A stretch of 64,000 nt of DNA from Sphingobacteriales bacterium (GTDB taxonomy: Bacteria; Bacteroidota; Bacteroidia; Chitinophagales; Chitinophagaceae): the NCBI GenBank assembly GCA_016185185.1, contig JACPOD010000036.1:1-64000 (forward strand), in the 5' to 3' direction. Of the stretch, positions 4,920-64,000 are shown piece by piece; positions within the stretch are counted from its first letter, which is position 1; every line of letters starts with the position of its first letter. The translations under genes and the position numbers were made by a program. The notes beneath the pieces were generated by a model. The model made no database searches, was not told the origin of the DNA, and saw only the letters and a list, made by a program, of their open reading frames with translations.

Positions 4920-5462
4920 ATGGCAAATTATTACAACGAGAGCACGGTGCTTTACTTAAACGGAGAGTTTGTAAAAGCATCAGAAGCAAAAATTGATTTA
5001 TACAGTCAGTCTTTGCACTATGGCTATGCTGTGTTTGAAGGAATCCGTTCTTATAAAAATGTAAATGGCGAAACTAAAATTTTTAAAGAGCAGGAGCATT
5101 TTGACCGCTTAAGAAATTCTGCTGTGGCAATGAATATGCCTTACCCATGGACGAATGAAGAACTGATCGCAGCTACGTACGAAGTATTAAAACGAAATAA
5201 TCTCCAGGATGCTTATATAAGACCAGTGGTGTATGCACCGGCCAATATGAGTTTTGTTCCCAACGAAGAGTCATTCATCTTCATCGAAGTTTGGGAAATG
5301 CTTCCCTTCTTTGGTGAAAAGTTATTGAAGGTGATGACGTCGCCTTTTCAGCGTCCCAATCCAAAAGGATTTAAGATCACTGCTAAAGCAAGTGGTCATT
5401 ATGTAAATTCAATTTTCAGAGATACACAGAGCAGTTTTAGTATAACATCGAAACCCGTCTGA
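4920..5462 (+). pseudogene. ilvE: Branched-chain aminotransferase, truncated (C-terminal part missing)
   Basis: The first 160-170 residues read as a class IV PLP-dependent branched-chain aminotransferase: VLYLNGEFVKASEAKIDLYS, LHYGYAVFEGIRSY and TAKASGHYVNS, the last with the lysine expected to hold PLP. Family members are about 290-300 residues, but this one loses homology after NSIF and stops at residue 180. The missing part would contain the EGPGANFF-like strand and the distal cofactor-binding residues. The break falls at a palindromic repeat (5455-5488) followed by more repeat words up to ilvD. The enzyme would make Val, Leu and Ile from their oxo acids. The fragment is very unlikely to be active, so another aminotransferase must act unless the sequence is mis-assembled. 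The ATG at 4920 was chosen by family similarity. Confidence 0.8.
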
Positions 5463-5488
5463 ATCCGACGAAGGAGGAGTCTGGCGGG
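5455..5488 (+). repeat. Palindromic repeat at the ilvE breakpoint (same family as in rarA)
   Basis: Starts CCGTCTGAATCCG and ends GAGTCTGGCGG. The same outer words, in reverse orientation, form the in-frame insert in rarA at 35573-35607. It is an imperfect palindrome. The ilvE stop codon lies inside it. Confidence 0.8.
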
Positions 5489-5550
5489 TATGAAAGAGTT
5501 GAACCGCAGAGGCGGGGAGATGCAGAGAAATGTAATGATTAAAAAGCTGA

Positions 5551-5590
5551 ATAGAATTGTTACAGCACAAGTGAGTGACACAACAGACGA
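5551..5590 (+). repeat. Dispersed repeat with core ACAAGTGAGTGACACAACAG
   Basis: The sequence around the core is almost the same as at 10891-10929 before ilvC. Inverted, more diverged copies lie near 49310-49340 and 49473-49505. All copies are intergenic. Function unknown. Confidence 0.75.
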
Positions 5591-5645
5591 TGAACAAAGA
5601 AATAAAGTTGATTAAAAAAATCTATTTATAACAAAACATAATAAT

Positions 5646-5665
5646 CTCCCTTTAGGGGATAGGGG
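5646..5665 (+). repeat. G/C boundary element directly before ilvD
   Basis: CTCCCTTTAGGGGATAGGGG is followed by T and the ilvD ATG at 5667. It matches the element before thrC in sequence and orientation. The G-run lies where a ribosome-binding site would be. Confidence 0.75.
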
Positions 5666-5666
5666 T

Positions 5667-7352
5667 ATGGCAGAACTAAATAAATATTCGAAAGTCTTAA
5701 CACAGGATCCCACTCAACCTGCGGCACAGGCAATGTATTATGCTATTGGATTTAAAGAAGAAGATTTTAATAAAGCCCAGGTGGGTATTGCCAGTATGGG
5801 TTGGGATGGTAACCCCTGTAATATGCACTTGAATGATCTGGCAACGAGTGTGAGAAGCAGTGTGAATGCTACTGATGGTTTATTGGGATTGCGTTTTCAT
5901 ACCATCGGTGTGAGTGACGGACAAAGTATGGGAACCGATGGAATGCGGTACAGTTTAGTAAGCCGTGATGTAATTGCTGATAGTATTGAAACCAATGCAG
6001 GTGCTCAATATTATGATGCATTAATTACCATACCAGGCTGTGATAAAAATATGCCCGGCTCCATTATGGCAATGGGAAGATTGAATCGTCCGGGTATTAT
6101 GTTGTATGGTGGTACAATTGCCCCTGGTCATTATAAGGGTCAGGATTTAAATATCGTAAGTGCTTTTGAAGCATTGGGACAAAAGATTGCCGGCACATTA
6201 AGTGAAAATGATTTTAAAGGAATTGTTCAGCATTCGTGTCCGGGTGCGGGTGCATGTGGTGGTATGTACACCGCTAACACTATGGCAAGTGCCATTGAAG
6301 CATTAGGAATGAGTTTGCCCAATTCTTCGAGCAATCCGGCATTGAGTGAAGAAAAACAAAAAGAATGTGCTGCTGTTGGTGCCGCTATAAAATTATTATT
6401 GGAGAAAGATATCAAACCAAAAGATATCATGACACGTAAAGCATTTGAAAATGCCATTACGGTTGTCATGGTGTTGGGTGGAAGTACCAATGCCGTATTG
6501 CATTTAATTGCTATGGCAAAGAGTGTGGATGTTCCGTTAACGCAGGATGATTTCCAGCTTATCAGTAATAAAATTCCGGTACTGGCAGATTTTAAACCCT
6601 CGGGAAAATATTTGATGGAAGACCTGCATCAGTATGGTGGTGTGCCGGCTGTGATGAAATATTTATTAAAGAAAGGTTTGTTGCATGGTGATTGCTTAAC
6701 AGTTACAGGAAAAACTGTTGCAGAGAATTTAGCGGATGCACCAGATTTGGATTTTGAACAACAAAAGATCATCATGCCTTTGGAAAACCCCTTAAAGGCA
6801 ACGGGTCATTTACAAATATTATACGGTAACCTGGCAGAGAAAGGAAGTGTTGCCAAGATCAGCGGCAAAGAAGGAGAACGGTTTGAAGGAACGGCAAGGG
6901 TATTTGATGGTGAAAAAGATTTGATCGCCGGTATTCAATCAGGCAAAGTGCATGCAGGTGATGTTGTAGTGATAAGATATATCGGTCCTAAAGGTGCTCC
7001 TGGTATGCCGGAGATGTTAAAACCAACAGGAGCGATCATCGGTGCCGGGTTAGGTAAAAGTGTAGCATTAATTACAGATGGAAGATTTAGTGGAGGAACA
7101 CATGGGTTCGTTGTTGGTCACATCACGCCTGAAGCATTTGAAGGAGGGTTGATCGGACTGGTACAGGATAACGACATCATTGAAATTGATGCAGTAAAAA
7201 ATACACTTACATTAAAAGTAGCAGCAGAAGTGATAGCCGAAAGAAGAAAAAACTGGAAACAACCACCGTTAAAAGCAACCCGTGGCATTTTATACAAATA
7301 TGCCAGAACAGTAAAAGATGCCAGCGAAGGTTGTGTAACCGATGAATTTTAG
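5667..7352 (+). CDS. ilvD: Dihydroxy-acid dehydratase
   Basis: IlvD dehydrates 2,3-dihydroxy-isovalerate and -methylvalerate to the oxo acids that precede valine/leucine and isoleucine. The product has 561 residues, the normal size. Cluster-binding motifs are present: GCDKNMPG near residue 126 and [16 protein letters not shown] near residue 192, holding the cysteines of the Fe-S cluster. The C-terminal [19 protein letters not shown] segment is also typical of the IlvD/Edd family. It is the first intact structural gene after the ilv attenuator and is preceded by a G/C boundary element in place of a normal leader. The oxo acids it makes would be aminated by IlvE, whose gene just upstream is broken. 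Confidence 0.96.
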
Positions 7353-7425
7353 CACAACGGGTGAATAGAAATAAAAAGTTGAAATGCTTAGTTGTAAAAA
7401 TAATTAATAAACAAAAGCCTGGTCT

Positions 7426-7444
7426 CCCTCTCTATGGGAGAGGG
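7426..7444 (+). repeat. G/C palindrome before the DinB-type gene
   Basis: CCCTCTC-TATGG-GAGAGGG, followed by AAAAAAGGGTGAGGCT and the ATG at 7461. A near relative lies at 12247-12270. Again the repeat ends where the next gene starts. Confidence 0.7.
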
Positions 7445-7460
7445 AAAAAAGGGTGAGGCT

Positions 7461-7952
7461 ATGACAAAACATTATTTCATAGAATTAGCGGATTATAATA
7501 TCTGGGCCAATAATATCCAGTGTGAATGGTTGGAACAATTAACGGAAGAGCAATGGAAACAGCATATTGTCAGCAGCTTTAACAGCATACAGGAAACAGT
7601 GTTGCATGTTATTGCTGCGGAGAATATTTGGTTACAGCGTTTGGAGAAAGAAGAAAAAACGGATTGGCTGCAGGGAAACTATACCGGTACAAAAGCTGAG
7701 CATATTGTTTTATGGAAAAGTTTGTCACAAAAACTAAAAGATTTTGTGATTGATATGGATGAAAAGTTGCTGAAGGAAAATCTTGATTTTAAAAGATTAA
7801 ATGGTGAGGTGTATTCAATGCCGCATTACCAGGTGCTGGCACATGTTTTCAATCATTCCACCTATCACCGCGGGCAATTGATTACCATGTTACGACAAGC
7901 AGGGTTTACAGCAGTTGGATCAACAGATATGCTTGGGTATTTCAAAAAATGA
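7461..7952 (+). CDS. DinB/YfiT-type four-helix metal-binding protein
   Basis: A 163-residue protein of the DinB/DUF664 four-helix-bundle superfamily. It has the three spaced histidines that bind a divalent metal in this fold: one in ETVLHVIAAENIW near residue 48 and two in HVFNHSTYHRGQL near residue 130. DinB homologues include thiol-dependent transferases and many proteins of unknown function; the substrate cannot be told. The ATG at 7461 gives the usual start (MTKHYFIELADYN) and removes nine residues that the repeat upstream would encode. It lies inside the ilv operon between ilvD and ilvB, with no obvious reason in the pathway. Confidence 0.8.
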   Translation: MTKHYFIELADYNIWANNIQCEWLEQLTEEQWKQHIVSSFNSIQETVLHVIAAENIWLQRLEKEEKTDWLQGNYTGTKAEHIVLWKSLSQKLKDFVIDMDEKLLKENLDFKRLNGEVYSMPHYQVLAHVFNHSTYHRGQLITMLRQAGFTAVGSTDMLGYFKK

Positions 7953-8001
7953 TTGGTTTAATTGACCAGCATAAGTTGGTTAATGAATAAAAAACTATTT
8001 T

Positions 8002-9750
8002 ATGGATACATTAGAATTAAAGAAACAAAAAGCGGAAGAAGTAAAATCGGTTACGATCAGTGGAGGTGCAGCTGTGCTGGAAGCTTTTTTAGCAGAGGAT
8101 GTGGATACCATCTTTGGCTATCCGGGGGGTGCTATTATGCCTATCTATGATGCATTGTATGATTATAATGAAAGAGTAAAACATATACTGGTTCGTCACG
8201 AACAAGGGGCTATTCATGCCGCACAGGGTTTTGCCAGGGCCAGTGGAAGAACCGGAGTGGTGTTTGCCACCAGCGGACCTGCGGCAACCAATTTAGTGAC
8301 AGGTTTAGCAGATGCTATGATTGACAGTACCCCATTGGTTTGTGTAACAGGCCAGGTGTTTGCCCATTTGCTTGGTACGGATGCTTTCCAGGAAACAGAT
8401 ATCATCAATATCACTACGCCGGTAACAAAATGGAATTACCAGGTAACGGATGCTAAAGAAATTCCTGCTGTATTAGCGAAAGCATTTCATATTGCAGGAA
8501 GCGGAAGGCCCGGACCTGTTTTGATTGATATTACTAAGAATGCTCAGTTGCAGATGTTTGAATATAGCGGTTATACCAAGTGTAATCATATCCGCAGCTA
8601 TCGGCCTAAACCAATCGTTAGAAAAAAATATATAGAGGAAGCAGCCAAACTTATTAATGAAGCAAAAAAACCATTCGTAATCTTTGGTCAGGGTGTGATT
8701 CTTGGCAAAGCTGAAAAAGAATTTATAAAATTTATTGAAAAAGGTGGTTTACCCGCAGCCTGGACCATTATGGGTATGAGTGCAATTCCAACAGATCATC
8801 CGCTGGGAGTAGGTATGCTGGGTATGCATGGGAATTATGGTCCGAATTTATTGACGAATGAATGTGATGTGTTGATTGCAATAGGTATGCGTTTTGATGA
8901 TCGTGTAACCGGCCGATTGGATAAATATGCCAGGCAGGCAAAAATTATTCATTTGGATATTGACCCTGCCGAAATTGATAAAAATGTAAAAGCAACAGTG
9001 GGTGTGTGGGGTGATTGTAAAGAAACATTGCCAATGCTAACAGAATTAATTGATCAGAAAATTTACCCTCAGTGGTTACAACAGTTTAAAGACTGTATGA
9101 TAAAAGAAGAAGCAAAAGTGATGAAGGAAGAATTGAACCCAACAAAGGATGAATTAACAATGGGGGAAGTAATTAACCTGCTGAATGAGTTAACGAAGGG
9201 TGATGCTATTATTGTAACGGATGTTGGTCAGCACCAGATGGTGGCCTGCCGCTATGCAAAAATGAACCAGAGTAAAAGTAATATCACCAGTGGTGGATTG
9301 GGAACAATGGGATTTGCATTGCCTGCAGCTATTGGTGCTAAATATGGAGCACCGGAGAGAACGGTGGTTGCTGTAATTGGTGATGGCGGCATACAGATGA
9401 CGATACAGGAGTTGGGAACAATCATGCAGTTTAAACCGGATGTAAAAATTTTAATTCTGAATAATAGTTTCCTCGGAATGGTTCGCCAGTGGCAGGAACT
9501 CTTTCATCAAAACAGGTATTCGTTTGTAAATATCACCAGTCCTGATTTTGTACAGGTAGCAAAAGGATATTATATCGACGGGCAAAGTGTAAATGAAAGA
9601 AGCAAACTGAAAGGTGCTTTAGAAACCATGCTTAATCATAAAGGAAGTTATTTACTGGAAGTAAAAGTGGGTAAAGAAAACAATGTATTCCCGATGGTGC
9701 CACAGGGCCGTGGAGTATCAGAAATAATTTTATGTAAAGAAGATCTGTAG
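8002..9750 (+). CDS. ilvB: Acetolactate synthase, large (catalytic) subunit
   Basis: Thiamine-diphosphate enzyme that joins two pyruvates, or pyruvate and 2-oxobutyrate, to form the acetohydroxy acids of valine/leucine and isoleucine synthesis. At 582 residues it has the normal length. Motifs are IFGYPGGAIMPIYDAL near residue 36, EQGAIHAAQGFARASG with the catalytic glutamate near residue 64, and the ThDP/Mg motif beginning GDGGIQMT near residue 458 and ending with the Asn pair of ILNNSF. FLGMVRQWQELF is typical of true biosynthetic AHAS. The regulatory subunit ilvN follows after a broken small gene. Confidence 0.96.
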   Translation: MDTLELKKQKAEEVKSVTISGGAAVLEAFLAEDVDTIFGYPGGAIMPIYDALYDYNERVKHILVRHEQGAIHAAQGFARASGRTGVVFATSGPAATNLVTGLADAMIDSTPLVCVTGQVFAHLLGTDAFQETDIINITTPVTKWNYQVTDAKEIPAVLAKAFHIAGSGRPGPVLIDITKNAQLQMFEYSGYTKCNHIRSYRPKPIVRKKYIEEAAKLINEAKKPFVIFGQGVILGKAEKEFIKFIEKGGLPAAWTIMGMSAIPTDHPLGVGMLGMHGNYGPNLLTNECDVLIAIGMRFDDRVTGRLDKYARQAKIIHLDIDPAEIDKNVKATVGVWGDCKETLPMLTELIDQKIYPQWLQQFKDCMIKEEAKVMKEELNPTKDELTMGEVINLLNELTKGDAIIVTDVGQHQMVACRYAKMNQSKSNITSGGLGTMGFALPAAIGAKYGAPERTVVAVIGDGGIQMTIQELGTIMQFKPDVKILILNNSFLGMVRQWQELFHQNRYSFVNITSPDFVQVAKGYYIDGQSVNERSKLKGALETMLNHKGSYLLEVKVGKENNVFPMVPQGRGVSEIILCKEDL

Positions 9751-62149: not shown

Positions 62150-62174
62150 AAAGACCTTGTAAAAGGTCTTTTTT
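62150..62174 (+). terminator. Terminator of the XRE/S24 gene
   Basis: AAAGACCTT pairs with AAGGTCTTT around GTAA and continues into TTTTTT. Confidence 0.9.
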
Positions 62175-62237
62175 GTTTTGAGTATAACAAGGTATGTACT
62201 GTTTTTTCAGGTATTTTTACAACTATAATCATACTGC

Positions 62238-63686
62238 ATGAATTCAATACCTGAAGAGGTTAAAGCATTTTTTGAAAGCTGGAAACCCGGCCCTGATACT
62301 ACCATTCAAACATTACCCCAGGCAGGCAGCAACCGCCATTATTTTAGGGTATTTCAAAATAACAGTTCTTATATCGTAACATTTAATCCAACCAATGTAC
62401 CGGAGAATAATGCTTTTATAGAATTCAGCCGGCATTTTTTTATCAAGCAATTACCTGTACCGGAAATCCTTCATGCAGATGCTGAAAAAAAACATTACAT
62501 CCAGTCGGATCTTGGAGACATATCCCTGTTTCAGCTGGTACAGCAACATGGGTATAACGATTATATATTCGAACTTTATAAAAAGAGCTTTGCACAACTG
62601 GCAAGATTACAGGTAGAAGGCGGACAAAACTTAGATTACAATAATTGTATTGCAACCAAATCTTTTGATAAACATGCTATCTATTCTGACCTGTTATATT
62701 TTAAATATTATTTCCTGCGGGCCTTGCAATTACCTTATGATAAAAATTTATTGCTGAACGATTTTGAAATGCTCAGCAGCTACCTGGTGCAGGAAGATCA
62801 TAAGTTTTTTATGCACCGTGATTGCCAGAGCCGAAATGTAATGGTAAAAGATGACCGGGTTTATTTTATCGATTACCAGGGAGGTATGCAGGGTGCCCTG
62901 CAGTATGATGTTGCTTCCATGTTATGGCAGGCAAGGGCTGCCCTACCTTACGACTGGAGGGATGAGTTGTATGATTATTATTACAATCATGTTAATACTT
63001 TATTGGGTAACCGTTTGCACAAACCATATTTTAAGGATAACTATGATGGTTTTGTACTCATACGTATGCTGCAAACATTAGGAGCTTATGGTTTCCGGGG
63101 TTTGTTTGAACGCAAACCACATTTTATTTCCAGTATTCCTTTTGCTTTAAAAAATCTTCGGTGGTTTTTGCAAAATAAAAATATTCCCATCCGTTTACCT
63201 GAGTTACAAAAAATATTATGGGCGATTGCAGATGATAAAATTATTGAACGTTATGATACCATTAAAGCAGGACCGGAGTGTAAGCTAAAAGTAAAGGTGA
63301 GCAGCTTTTCCTATAAAAAAGGGATGCCGGAAGATCTAAGTGGGAATGGTGGCGGGTTTGTTTTTGACTGCAGAGGCATTTATAATCCCGGACGGCAGGA
63401 AGAGTTTAAAAAATTAACGGGCAGAGATAAAGAGGTACAGGAGTTCCTGCTGCATGAAAGTGAAATGCCATCTTTTCTTCAATATGTTTATGGCATTGTT
63501 GATATAACCGTACAGGATTATATTAAGCGGGGGTTTGAGAATTTAATGATAAGTTTTGGTTGTACCGGCGGGCAACACCGCTCTGTTTTTGCAGCAGATA
63601 GTCTAGCCAAACACCTCCAGGAAAAATTTAATGTCGTTACCGAGATCCATCATATAGAACAGGAGTCAAAAAACTGGATAAACTAA
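62238..63686 (+). CDS. AmgK-like sugar kinase fused to RapZ C-terminal domain
   Basis: A 482-residue fusion. Residues 1-335 are an aminoglycoside-phosphotransferase-fold kinase: GSNRHYFRVFQNNSSYIVTF (nucleotide loop), FMHRDCQSRNVMVKDDRVYF (Brenner motif, catalytic Asp) and FIDYQGGMQG (metal Asp), with likeness to AmgK, which phosphorylates N-acetylmuramate and GlcNAc at C1 in wall recycling. Residues 358-480 match the C-terminal domain of RapZ (VSSFSYKKGMPEDLSGN, FDCRGIYNPGR, ISFGCTGGQHRSVFAADSLA), which in E. coli binds glucosamine-6-phosphate. A MurU-like nucleotidyltransferase gene follows after seven bases. The N-terminal P-loop part of RapZ is absent. Confidence 0.85.
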   Translation: MNSIPEEVKAFFESWKPGPDTTIQTLPQAGSNRHYFRVFQNNSSYIVTFNPTNVPENNAFIEFSRHFFIKQLPVPEILHADAEKKHYIQSDLGDISLFQLVQQHGYNDYIFELYKKSFAQLARLQVEGGQNLDYNNCIATKSFDKHAIYSDLLYFKYYFLRALQLPYDKNLLLNDFEMLSSYLVQEDHKFFMHRDCQSRNVMVKDDRVYFIDYQGGMQGALQYDVASMLWQARAALPYDWRDELYDYYYNHVNTLLGNRLHKPYFKDNYDGFVLIRMLQTLGAYGFRGLFERKPHFISSIPFALKNLRWFLQNKNIPIRLPELQKILWAIADDKIIERYDTIKAGPECKLKVKVSSFSYKKGMPEDLSGNGGGFVFDCRGIYNPGRQEEFKKLTGRDKEVQEFLLHESEMPSFLQYVYGIVDITVQDYIKRGFENLMISFGCTGGQHRSVFAADSLAKHLQEKFNVVTEIHHIEQESKNWIN

Positions 63687-63693
63687 AGAACCG

Positions 63694-64000
63694 ATGAAAG
63701 CAATGATCTTTGCAGCAGGATTGGGTACCCGGTTTAAACCATTTACTGATGTGCACCCAAAAGCACTGGCACTAGTAAACGGCAAGTCTTTACTACAGCG
63801 AAATATTGAATACTTTCAGCAATATGGAATTACCAATGTAGTAGTGAACGTACATCATTTTGCTGATCAGATCATTGAAGCCGTTCAAAAGAATAAAGGC
63901 TGGGGGTCTGATGTTATCATCAGCGATGAAACCAATGAAGTACTGGAAACAGGTGGGGGCCTATTAAAAGCAAAAGAAATGCTGATCAGTAGGGAGCCTT
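63694..64000 (+). CDS. murU: MurU-like sugar-1-phosphate nucleotidyltransferase, N-terminal part (cut by window end)
   Basis: The first 102 residues read MKAMIFAAGLGTRFKPFTDV, then PKALALVNGKSLLQRNIEYF: the GxGTRxxPxTxxxPK nucleotide-binding signature of the NTP_transferase family. VVNVHHFADQIIEAV and DETNEVLETGGGLLKAKEML follow as in MurU, which makes UDP-N-acetylmuramate from the sugar 1-phosphate. RmlA/GlmU-like relatives share the signature, so MurU is favoured mainly because an AmgK-like kinase lies seven bases upstream. The C-terminal two thirds lie outside the window. Confidence 0.75.
   Translation, partial: MKAMIFAAGLGTRFKPFTDVHPKALALVNGKSLLQRNIEYFQQYGITNVVVNVHHFADQIIEAVQKNKGWGSDVIISDETNEVLETGGGLLKAKEMLISREP

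Follow-up and report, generated by a model that had tools for sequence, protein, structure and literature searches.

Four described systems (here and below, papers are cited for what their accessible parts state) lie closest to the subject of this report, a gene that encodes an AmgK-like sugar kinase of the aminoglycoside phosphotransferase (APH) type followed by the C-terminal domain of RapZ (RapZ-C). The gene lies in a window of 64,000 nucleotides (nt), the whole stretch of DNA that was analysed, from contig JACPOD010000036.1 of a Sphingobacteriales bacterium of the phylum Bacteroidota. In the AmgK-MurU-MupP route of Pseudomonas putida and P. aeruginosa, the phosphatase MupP, which acts on N-acetylmuramic acid (MurNAc) 6-phosphate (MurNAc-6-P), stands between AnmK and AmgK (PMC5371407); our locus likewise places an AmgK-like gene beside a MurU-like gene, but the scores fall far below the AmgK and MurU equivalog cut-offs, RapZ-C follows the kinase, and no MupP was found over cut-off in 50 genomes. 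The C-terminal domain of Escherichia coli RapZ has the same fold and the same cradle, C247-S254 (PMC5737377, PMC7073468, PMC9841335), whereas the protein described here has no N-terminal half, has most of the RNA contacts replaced, carries glycine in place of His190 and is tied to a sugar kinase, by fusion or by linkage. Bacillus subtilis YvcJ is likewise a RapZ relative without the RNA motif and tied to amino-sugar metabolism, though it differs in having the Walker nucleoside triphosphatase (NTPase) half and in being linked to GlmR, not to AmgK-MurU (PMC7525490). Lastly, for MurNAc salvage in Tannerella forsythia, which belongs to the same phylum, AmgK and MurU have been proposed to lead to uridine diphosphate (UDP)-MurNAc (PMC7670621, PMC5790795); the accessible text of that work mentions no RapZ domain, yet a bin titled Tannerella sp. 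(L143) carries the fusion.

A search of the open-access literature found no paper joining RapZ and AmgK, nor the phrase 'RapZ C-terminal domain' together with 'fused', though either may have been published outside it; what it returned on RapZ and Bacteroidetes concerns RNA degradation. Pfam and NCBIfam scans of the fusion gave no model for the pair of kinase and RapZ-C. The parts and the pathway are known; what is new is the steady tie of RapZ-C to this pathway without the N-terminal half of RapZ and without the RNA residues, and the combination may already stand in databases. Our findings suggest that the RapZ piece has an RNA-independent job in sugar metabolism, because it co-occurs from genome to genome with the kinase and with the enzyme that acts next in the pathway. 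We put the probability that RapZ-C works, without RNA, as a component of the AmgK-MurU salvage route at roughly 85 %, a figure that was lowered to this level because the kinase profile used in the survey came only from RapZ-C-linked kinases.

Architecture and spread of the fused protein

The preliminary description of this DNA had proposed an AmgK-like kinase that carries RapZ-C and lacks the N-terminal half of RapZ, and all three elements are borne out. The APH domain lies above the Pfam cut-off, and the best non-RapZ NCBIfam model of the protein is AmgK (NF045759), at 56 bits against a cut-off of 550; a second AmgK model (NF045698) gives 28.6 bits against 500, so that the fusion falls below both AmgK equivalog cut-offs. 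PF22740, the Pfam model of RapZ-C, matches with an expectation value (E) of 6.6e-34 and 117.1 bits against a cut-off of 27, over profile positions 1-117 of 121, while the RapZ equivalog NF003828 scores 103.7 bits against 244, its C-terminal half alone matching. In the Pfam scan of the protein at E <= 0.01, neither the Walker half of RapZ (PF03668, RapZ-like_N) nor a HAD family, the class of phosphatases that includes MupP, was found. Residues D195, N200 and D212 of the kinase part are invariant in all 46 proteins aligned, and from knowledge of the family we take them, with the loop HRDCQSRN, to be catalytic. We infer the activities of the kinase and of the MurU-like neighbour from their families.

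The predicted structure agrees with this division. AlphaFold2 modelled the whole fusion with a mean predicted local distance difference test score (pLDDT) of 92.9 and a predicted template modelling score (pTM) of 0.79, and the RapZ-C part alone with a pLDDT of 93.7. The best structural match of the kinase part covers model residues 3-341 and is to the putative aminoglycoside phosphotransferase 3csv (Z 29.9, root-mean-square deviation (rmsd) 2.8, 311 residues aligned); structural kinase matches thus reach to about residue 341, beyond the end of the Pfam APH domain at 248. RapZ-C superimposes on the C-terminal domain of E. coli RapZ (5o5s) with Z 20.2, rmsd 1.4 and 30 % identity over 122 aligned residues; the next fold matches after RapZ are phosphofructokinases at Z 6.5, a likeness already described in the crystal paper (PMC5737377).

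The fusion is a genuine two-domain protein. Near-full-length matches in 35 of 59 relatives (the source genome included; the match in G034 is interrupted by a stop) and, by record title, in other phyla rule out a chance, frame or assembly artefact. These matches fall in 32 of 36 genomes of the same family and in 3 of 23 genomes from elsewhere in the order. A scan of titled genome contigs matched at least 593 stretches, of which at least 589 were confirmed, and the best 80, all covering most of the length of the fusion, were analysed. Their titles include, within Bacteroidota, Chitinophagales and Bacteroidales (Bacteroides, Phocaeicola, Parabacteroides, Prevotella, Alloprevotella and Tannerella) and, beyond it, Ignavibacteria, Calditrichia, Delongbacteria, Elusimicrobia, Acidobacteriaceae and Gemmatimonadales, though many are metagenome bins and single titles may be wrong. 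Five of the 80 loci (L116, the Delongbacteria match, with L119, L134, L137 and L156) were excluded for a stop within the matched span, leaving 75 fusion loci.

Co-occurrence of kinase, RapZ-C and MurU across the phylum

The survey of the phylum covered a draw of 395 genomes. In 49 of them PF22740 was found, with 37 in frames of 476-524 amino acids (aa), that is fused, and 12 in frames of 134-169 aa, that is separate; loci were inspected for 41 of the 49, and 8 of the 37 fused matches were counted without inspection. The N-terminal half of RapZ (PF03668) is above cut-off in none of the 395, and its two short sub-threshold matches both lie in genomes without RapZ-C. In control searches, the two models matched in 6 of 14 genomes and missed B. 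subtilis despite its YvcJ (PMC7525490), so members can escape them.

A kinase profile matched 135 of the 395 genomes, and the 50 matches at E <= 1e-70 are the 49 RapZ-C genomes plus one other, G066; the profile was built from 19 rows, all from kinases fused to or beside RapZ-C, which favours this 49-of-50 figure and counts against our reading, and it contained no kinase from the four genomes in which kinase and RapZ-C lie apart. The remaining 85 matches comprise one fragmentary match (G395) and 84 genomes of family f37, whose AmgK-like kinase is more remote (E 1e-29 to 1e-42) and occupies frames without RapZ-C. A MurU relative (E <= 3e-30) is present in all 50 close-kinase genomes, the weakest match, in G356, containing a stop, versus none of 30 RapZ-C-negative genomes, which were selected for having AnmK (best match 4.8e-16). 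G066 is a natural absence of the RapZ-C domain: 23 nt separate its kinase match, in a 332-aa frame, from the MurU match that directly follows (C44:46092-47785).

Where RapZ-C is a separate gene, the kinase is still present in the genome in all 12 cases. Eight of these copies, seven of family f23 (L070-L076) and L065, adjoin the kinase gene, and MurU then follows in L065 and L071-L076; in L070, the filtered frame list shows another frame at the MurU position, yet the MurU match adjoins RapZ-C. RapZ-C lies away from the kinase gene in the other four (G234, G323, G356 and G381). In L069, RapZ-C adjoins MurU and the kinase lies at another place in the genome, and in L066, L067 and L068 neither kinase nor MurU lies within 10 kb of RapZ-C, while the genomes hold both. 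These three lone genes (in G356, G234 and G323, respectively) encode 133-165 aa and form their own supported group in a quick tree of RapZ-C. In the same tree, the eight separate f23 copies fall within a group (support 99) that also holds 49 fused ones, and the four remaining separate copies stand at two further positions. The tree is unrooted and has 142 columns and a very long E. coli branch, so the order of architectures cannot be read from it, and the suggestion in the preliminary description that the fusion represents an ancestral use of the RapZ domain is not shown.

Among the 75 fusion loci, MurU is the sole neighbour that recurs in more than five, standing downstream on the same strand in at least 44, a lower bound given that several loci end early. 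Together with the dimerisation of the E. coli domain (PMC5737377), this regularity might be read as a sign that RapZ-C serves for dimerisation or docking and holds kinase and MurU together, its pocket a relic. The cradle, however, is near invariant against a mean column identity of 58 % in the RapZ-C alignment, and 30 of the 75 loci show no MurU relative in the fetched flanks, some of which are short; we regard a docking role as improbable.

The RapZ-C pocket and its possible chemistry

For a comparison at residue level, 138 RapZ-C rows were aligned to RapZ of E. coli K-12, identical rows having been removed here as in the tree. The rows were selected by the pattern C[ST]GG.H, which biases counts within the motif upward; the motif is present in all inspected loci of the 41 profile-found genomes. 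Kept in all 138 rows are D182, R184, G246, C247, G249, G250, H252, S254 and H276, with T248 and R253 kept in 137 and D202 in 133. The equivalent of H276, residue 472 of the window's protein, is a histidine after the last strand to which the accessible RapZ papers give no role. Malonate or sulfate is bound in E. coli RapZ by the backbone of T248 and G249 and the side chains of H190, H252 and R253 (PMC5737377), and the H190A variant is inactive (PMC9841335). In the fusion of the window the equivalents of T248, G249, H252 and R253 are kept and H190 is replaced, its region holding Gly385 and Arg386; the H190 position is glycine in all 138 rows, within NPG in every one (NPGR in 50 of the 75 fusions, NPGK in 19, and 6 unparsed by the pattern). 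Because glycine takes the place of His190 throughout, the ligand and its effect may differ from the sensing of glucosamine-6-phosphate (GlcN6P).

Most of the positions that contact RNA in E. coli are replaced: R238 by F in 132 of 138 rows, K251 by Q in 134 and K270 by V, I or L in 126, with the K281-K283 tail not kept, while K170 remains K or R in 130. Judged from the alignment, most RNA-binding parts are lost, the anion cradle is retained, and one pocket residue is changed in every row. A function without small RNAs, as the preliminary description supposed, fits both these replacements and the lack of any N-terminal half over cut-off in the phylum sample. Homology to the RapZ domain and the persistence of K170 are what would speak for RapZ-C still binding RNA and controlling amino-sugar genes as in E. 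coli, but with the other contacts gone, with no partner half found among the 395 genomes and with no Rfam family at gathering score within the window, we consider this very improbable indeed.

The proposal that we tentatively place first, by a narrow margin, is that RapZ-C is a Cys-dependent phosphatase of amino-sugar 6-phosphates, with MurNAc-6-P as the first candidate. The protein probably works in the anabolic salvage of cell-wall sugar, RapZ-C being an RNA-free phospho-amino-sugar site that serves the AmgK-MurU route: it would remove the 6-phosphate from the amino-sugar phosphate and pass the free sugar to the AmgK-like half, which would phosphorylate the anomeric carbon of MurNAc, and probably of N-acetylglucosamine (GlcNAc) too, and the MurU-like enzyme would convert the kinase product to UDP-MurNAc. 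RapZ-C would then stand in for the HAD phosphatase MupP without being related to it. We infer the phosphatase step from several lines of evidence. The cradle sequence CTGGQHRS fits CX5R(S/T), which we take to be the signature of Cys-type phosphatases; in the RapZ-C domain model, the cysteine (97) ends strand 90-97 and R103-S104 open helix 103-119, so that the loop sits between a strand and a helix, presumably as in those enzymes. The cradle is near invariant, as are two acids, D182 (138/138) and D202 (133/138), and the trio of kinase, RapZ-C and MurU occurs together, the separate RapZ-C genes (12/49) included. Both C247A and C247S inactivate E. coli RapZ, for which the authors suggest a possible catalytic SH group (PMC9841335). 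Among homologues, NTPase and phosphatase activities are reported from earlier work for YvcJ (PMC7525490), and HpaP, whose kinship to RapZ we take from its citation in PMC7073468, is said to have both.

The pathway context points in the same direction. AnmK, which makes MurNAc-6-P, was found in 272 of the 395 phylum genomes and in 32 of the 49 with RapZ-C (a partial or weak match, G270, counted as present). MurQ, the other exit of MurNAc-6-P, is present in 21 of the 49 and in all 30 RapZ-C-negative, AnmK-positive genomes, counted at E <= 1e-70; two of the former matches and one of the latter fall below the curated cut-off. Among the 62 AnmK-positive genomes tested, AnmK without MurQ thus occurs in 15 of 32 with RapZ-C versus 0 of 30 without, and since MurQ is present in every one of the latter, all 15 carry the trio; eight of the 15 belong to one family, f23, so these counts are not independent, contrary to what the Fisher tests run on them assume, which tempers the argument. 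Of the 12 genomes in which RapZ-C is a gene of its own, 11 have AnmK without MurQ, versus 4 of the 37 with the fusion. The kinases without RapZ-C sit where AnmK was not found: G066 yielded neither AnmK nor MurQ, and none of the 84 f37 genomes is on the AnmK-positive list, by eye.

Several observations weigh against a phosphatase. AnmK was not found in 17 of the 49 RapZ-C genomes, nor in 16 of 50 titled fusion genomes (partial or weak matches, G460 and G462, counted as present; the two samples share some genomes), and the cradle is equally conserved with and without it. Because AnmK-less genomes keep the cradle, AnmK-derived MurNAc-6-P cannot be the whole story, and a strict link to AnmK was rejected. 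Both AnmK and MurQ are present in 17 of the 49, including the source genome, whose MurQ relative (C81:21189-21959) is above cut-off; this host seems to have both a catabolic and an anabolic exit for MurNAc. The MupP equivalog of NCBIfam is above cut-off in none of the 50 kinase genomes, which speaks for a replacement, but it is above cut-off in none of 14 controls either, and with HAD phosphatases abundant (3-9 matches per genome in 8 genomes), an unrecognised MupP analogue is possible; the best MupP score among 10 of the 30 HAD_2 loci of these 8 genomes was 101 bits against a cut-off of 359. No phosphatase fold stands among the fold matches listed for RapZ-C, which excludes nothing; Pfam at E <= 10 returned PF22740 in 29 of 29 RapZ-C sequences and otherwise scattered matches at E >= 0.03, and sequence-profile and fold searches of the PDB with RapZ-C returned RapZ, then phosphofructokinase-like and mixed weak matches, and no phosphatase family. 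As to the homologues, a Walker half is present in YvcJ, ATPase activity is ascribed to HpaP, and the half that bears the phosphatase activity is not evident from the accessible texts.

The genomes in which AnmK was not found (17/49 and 16/50) fit a second proposal, the idea of the preliminary description, in which RapZ-C is an allosteric sensor whose binding of an amino-sugar phosphate (GlcN6P, MurNAc-6-P or a UDP-sugar) turns kinase activity up or down, in cis within the fusion, or through contact with the kinase where the two are separate proteins. Such a sensor needs no AnmK, and there would be nothing unusual in a kinase under the control of an amino-sugar phosphate. The E. coli domain by itself binds GlcN6P with a dissociation constant (KD) of 10 nM by surface plasmon resonance (PMC7073468), YvcJ binds UDP-GlcNAc (PMC7525490), and the functional loss of C247S/A is accompanied in the tested variants by loss of RNA binding, so that the cysteine may be structural (PMC9841335). 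On the other hand, H190, needed in E. coli, is glycine in every row, so the ligand probably differs, and a pure sensor predicts neither RapZ-C in all tested genomes with AnmK and without MurQ nor RapZ-C copies distant from the kinase gene. We hold the sensor to be possible and place it second, only slightly behind the phosphatase, the two being almost evenly balanced. The phosphatase proposal also admits an extended form, that RapZ-C was by origin a Cys phosphatase which, fused to AmgK, is the missing MurNAc-6-P phosphatase of the AmgK-MurU route in Bacteroidota and nearby phyla, and that E. coli RapZ is a later reuse. The loss of function in E. coli C247S would then follow because RapZ would have turned an old phosphatase active site to the sensing of GlcN6P and the gripping of RNA; this evolutionary scenario we consider unlikely.

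The locus and its biological meaning

The coordinates of the features are collected in Table 1. The MurU gene that the preliminary description set beside the kinase is indeed the next gene, starting 7 nt after the stop of the fusion, though only its first part lies within the window; its best NCBIfam family is MurU, at 124.9 bits against a cut-off of 250, below the equivalog cut-off. The fusion and MurU look like a transcription unit of their own, because a hairpin with a T-run parts them from the upstream gene.

Table 1. Features of the fusion locus, in window coordinates.
Feature	Position	Strand	Basis
Fused gene, AmgK-like kinase and RapZ C-terminal domain, 482 aa	62238..63686	+	ORF, Pfam, NCBIfam, AlphaFold2
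APH-fold kinase domain PF01636, residues 23-248	62304..62981	+	Pfam E 4.8e-14, above cut-off
Presumed kinase catalytic loop HRDCQSRN, residues 193-200	62814..62837	+	D195, N200 invariant
RapZ C-terminal domain PF22740, residues 350-472	63285..63653	+	Pfam E 8.2e-35 and domain model
Putative phosphate cradle CTGGQHRS, residues 442-449	63561..63584	+	Aligned to E. coli RapZ C247-S254
MurU-like nucleotidyltransferase, 238 aa	63694..64000 in window, whole gene to 64407	+	NCBIfam
Terminator-like hairpin with T-run, between upstream repressor-like gene and fusion	62150..62175	+	Spotted by eye

The source genome is 81 % complete. On its contig C22 (locus L005), a second APH-type kinase (4997-6046), without an NCBIfam match at 1e-6, faces a 640-aa protein (6115-8037) that resembles glucosamine-6-phosphate deaminase (NF002557, 1046 bits), and an upstream open reading frame is LacI-like by eye; the locus may hold a kinase of amino-sugar catabolism.

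In enteric bacteria RapZ is known for what it does with small RNAs, which raises the question of what its C-terminal domain did before. In this sample, RapZ-C travels genome by genome with a pair of cell-wall salvage enzymes and never with the rest of RapZ. The fusion offers a simple, RNA-free system for measuring the chemistry of the RapZ pocket, and RapZ-C is a candidate for the unnamed MurNAc-6-P phosphatase of some Bacteroidota and of members of neighbouring phyla, within a salvage pathway, AmgK-MurU, that in Pseudomonas is a route bypassing the target of fosfomycin.

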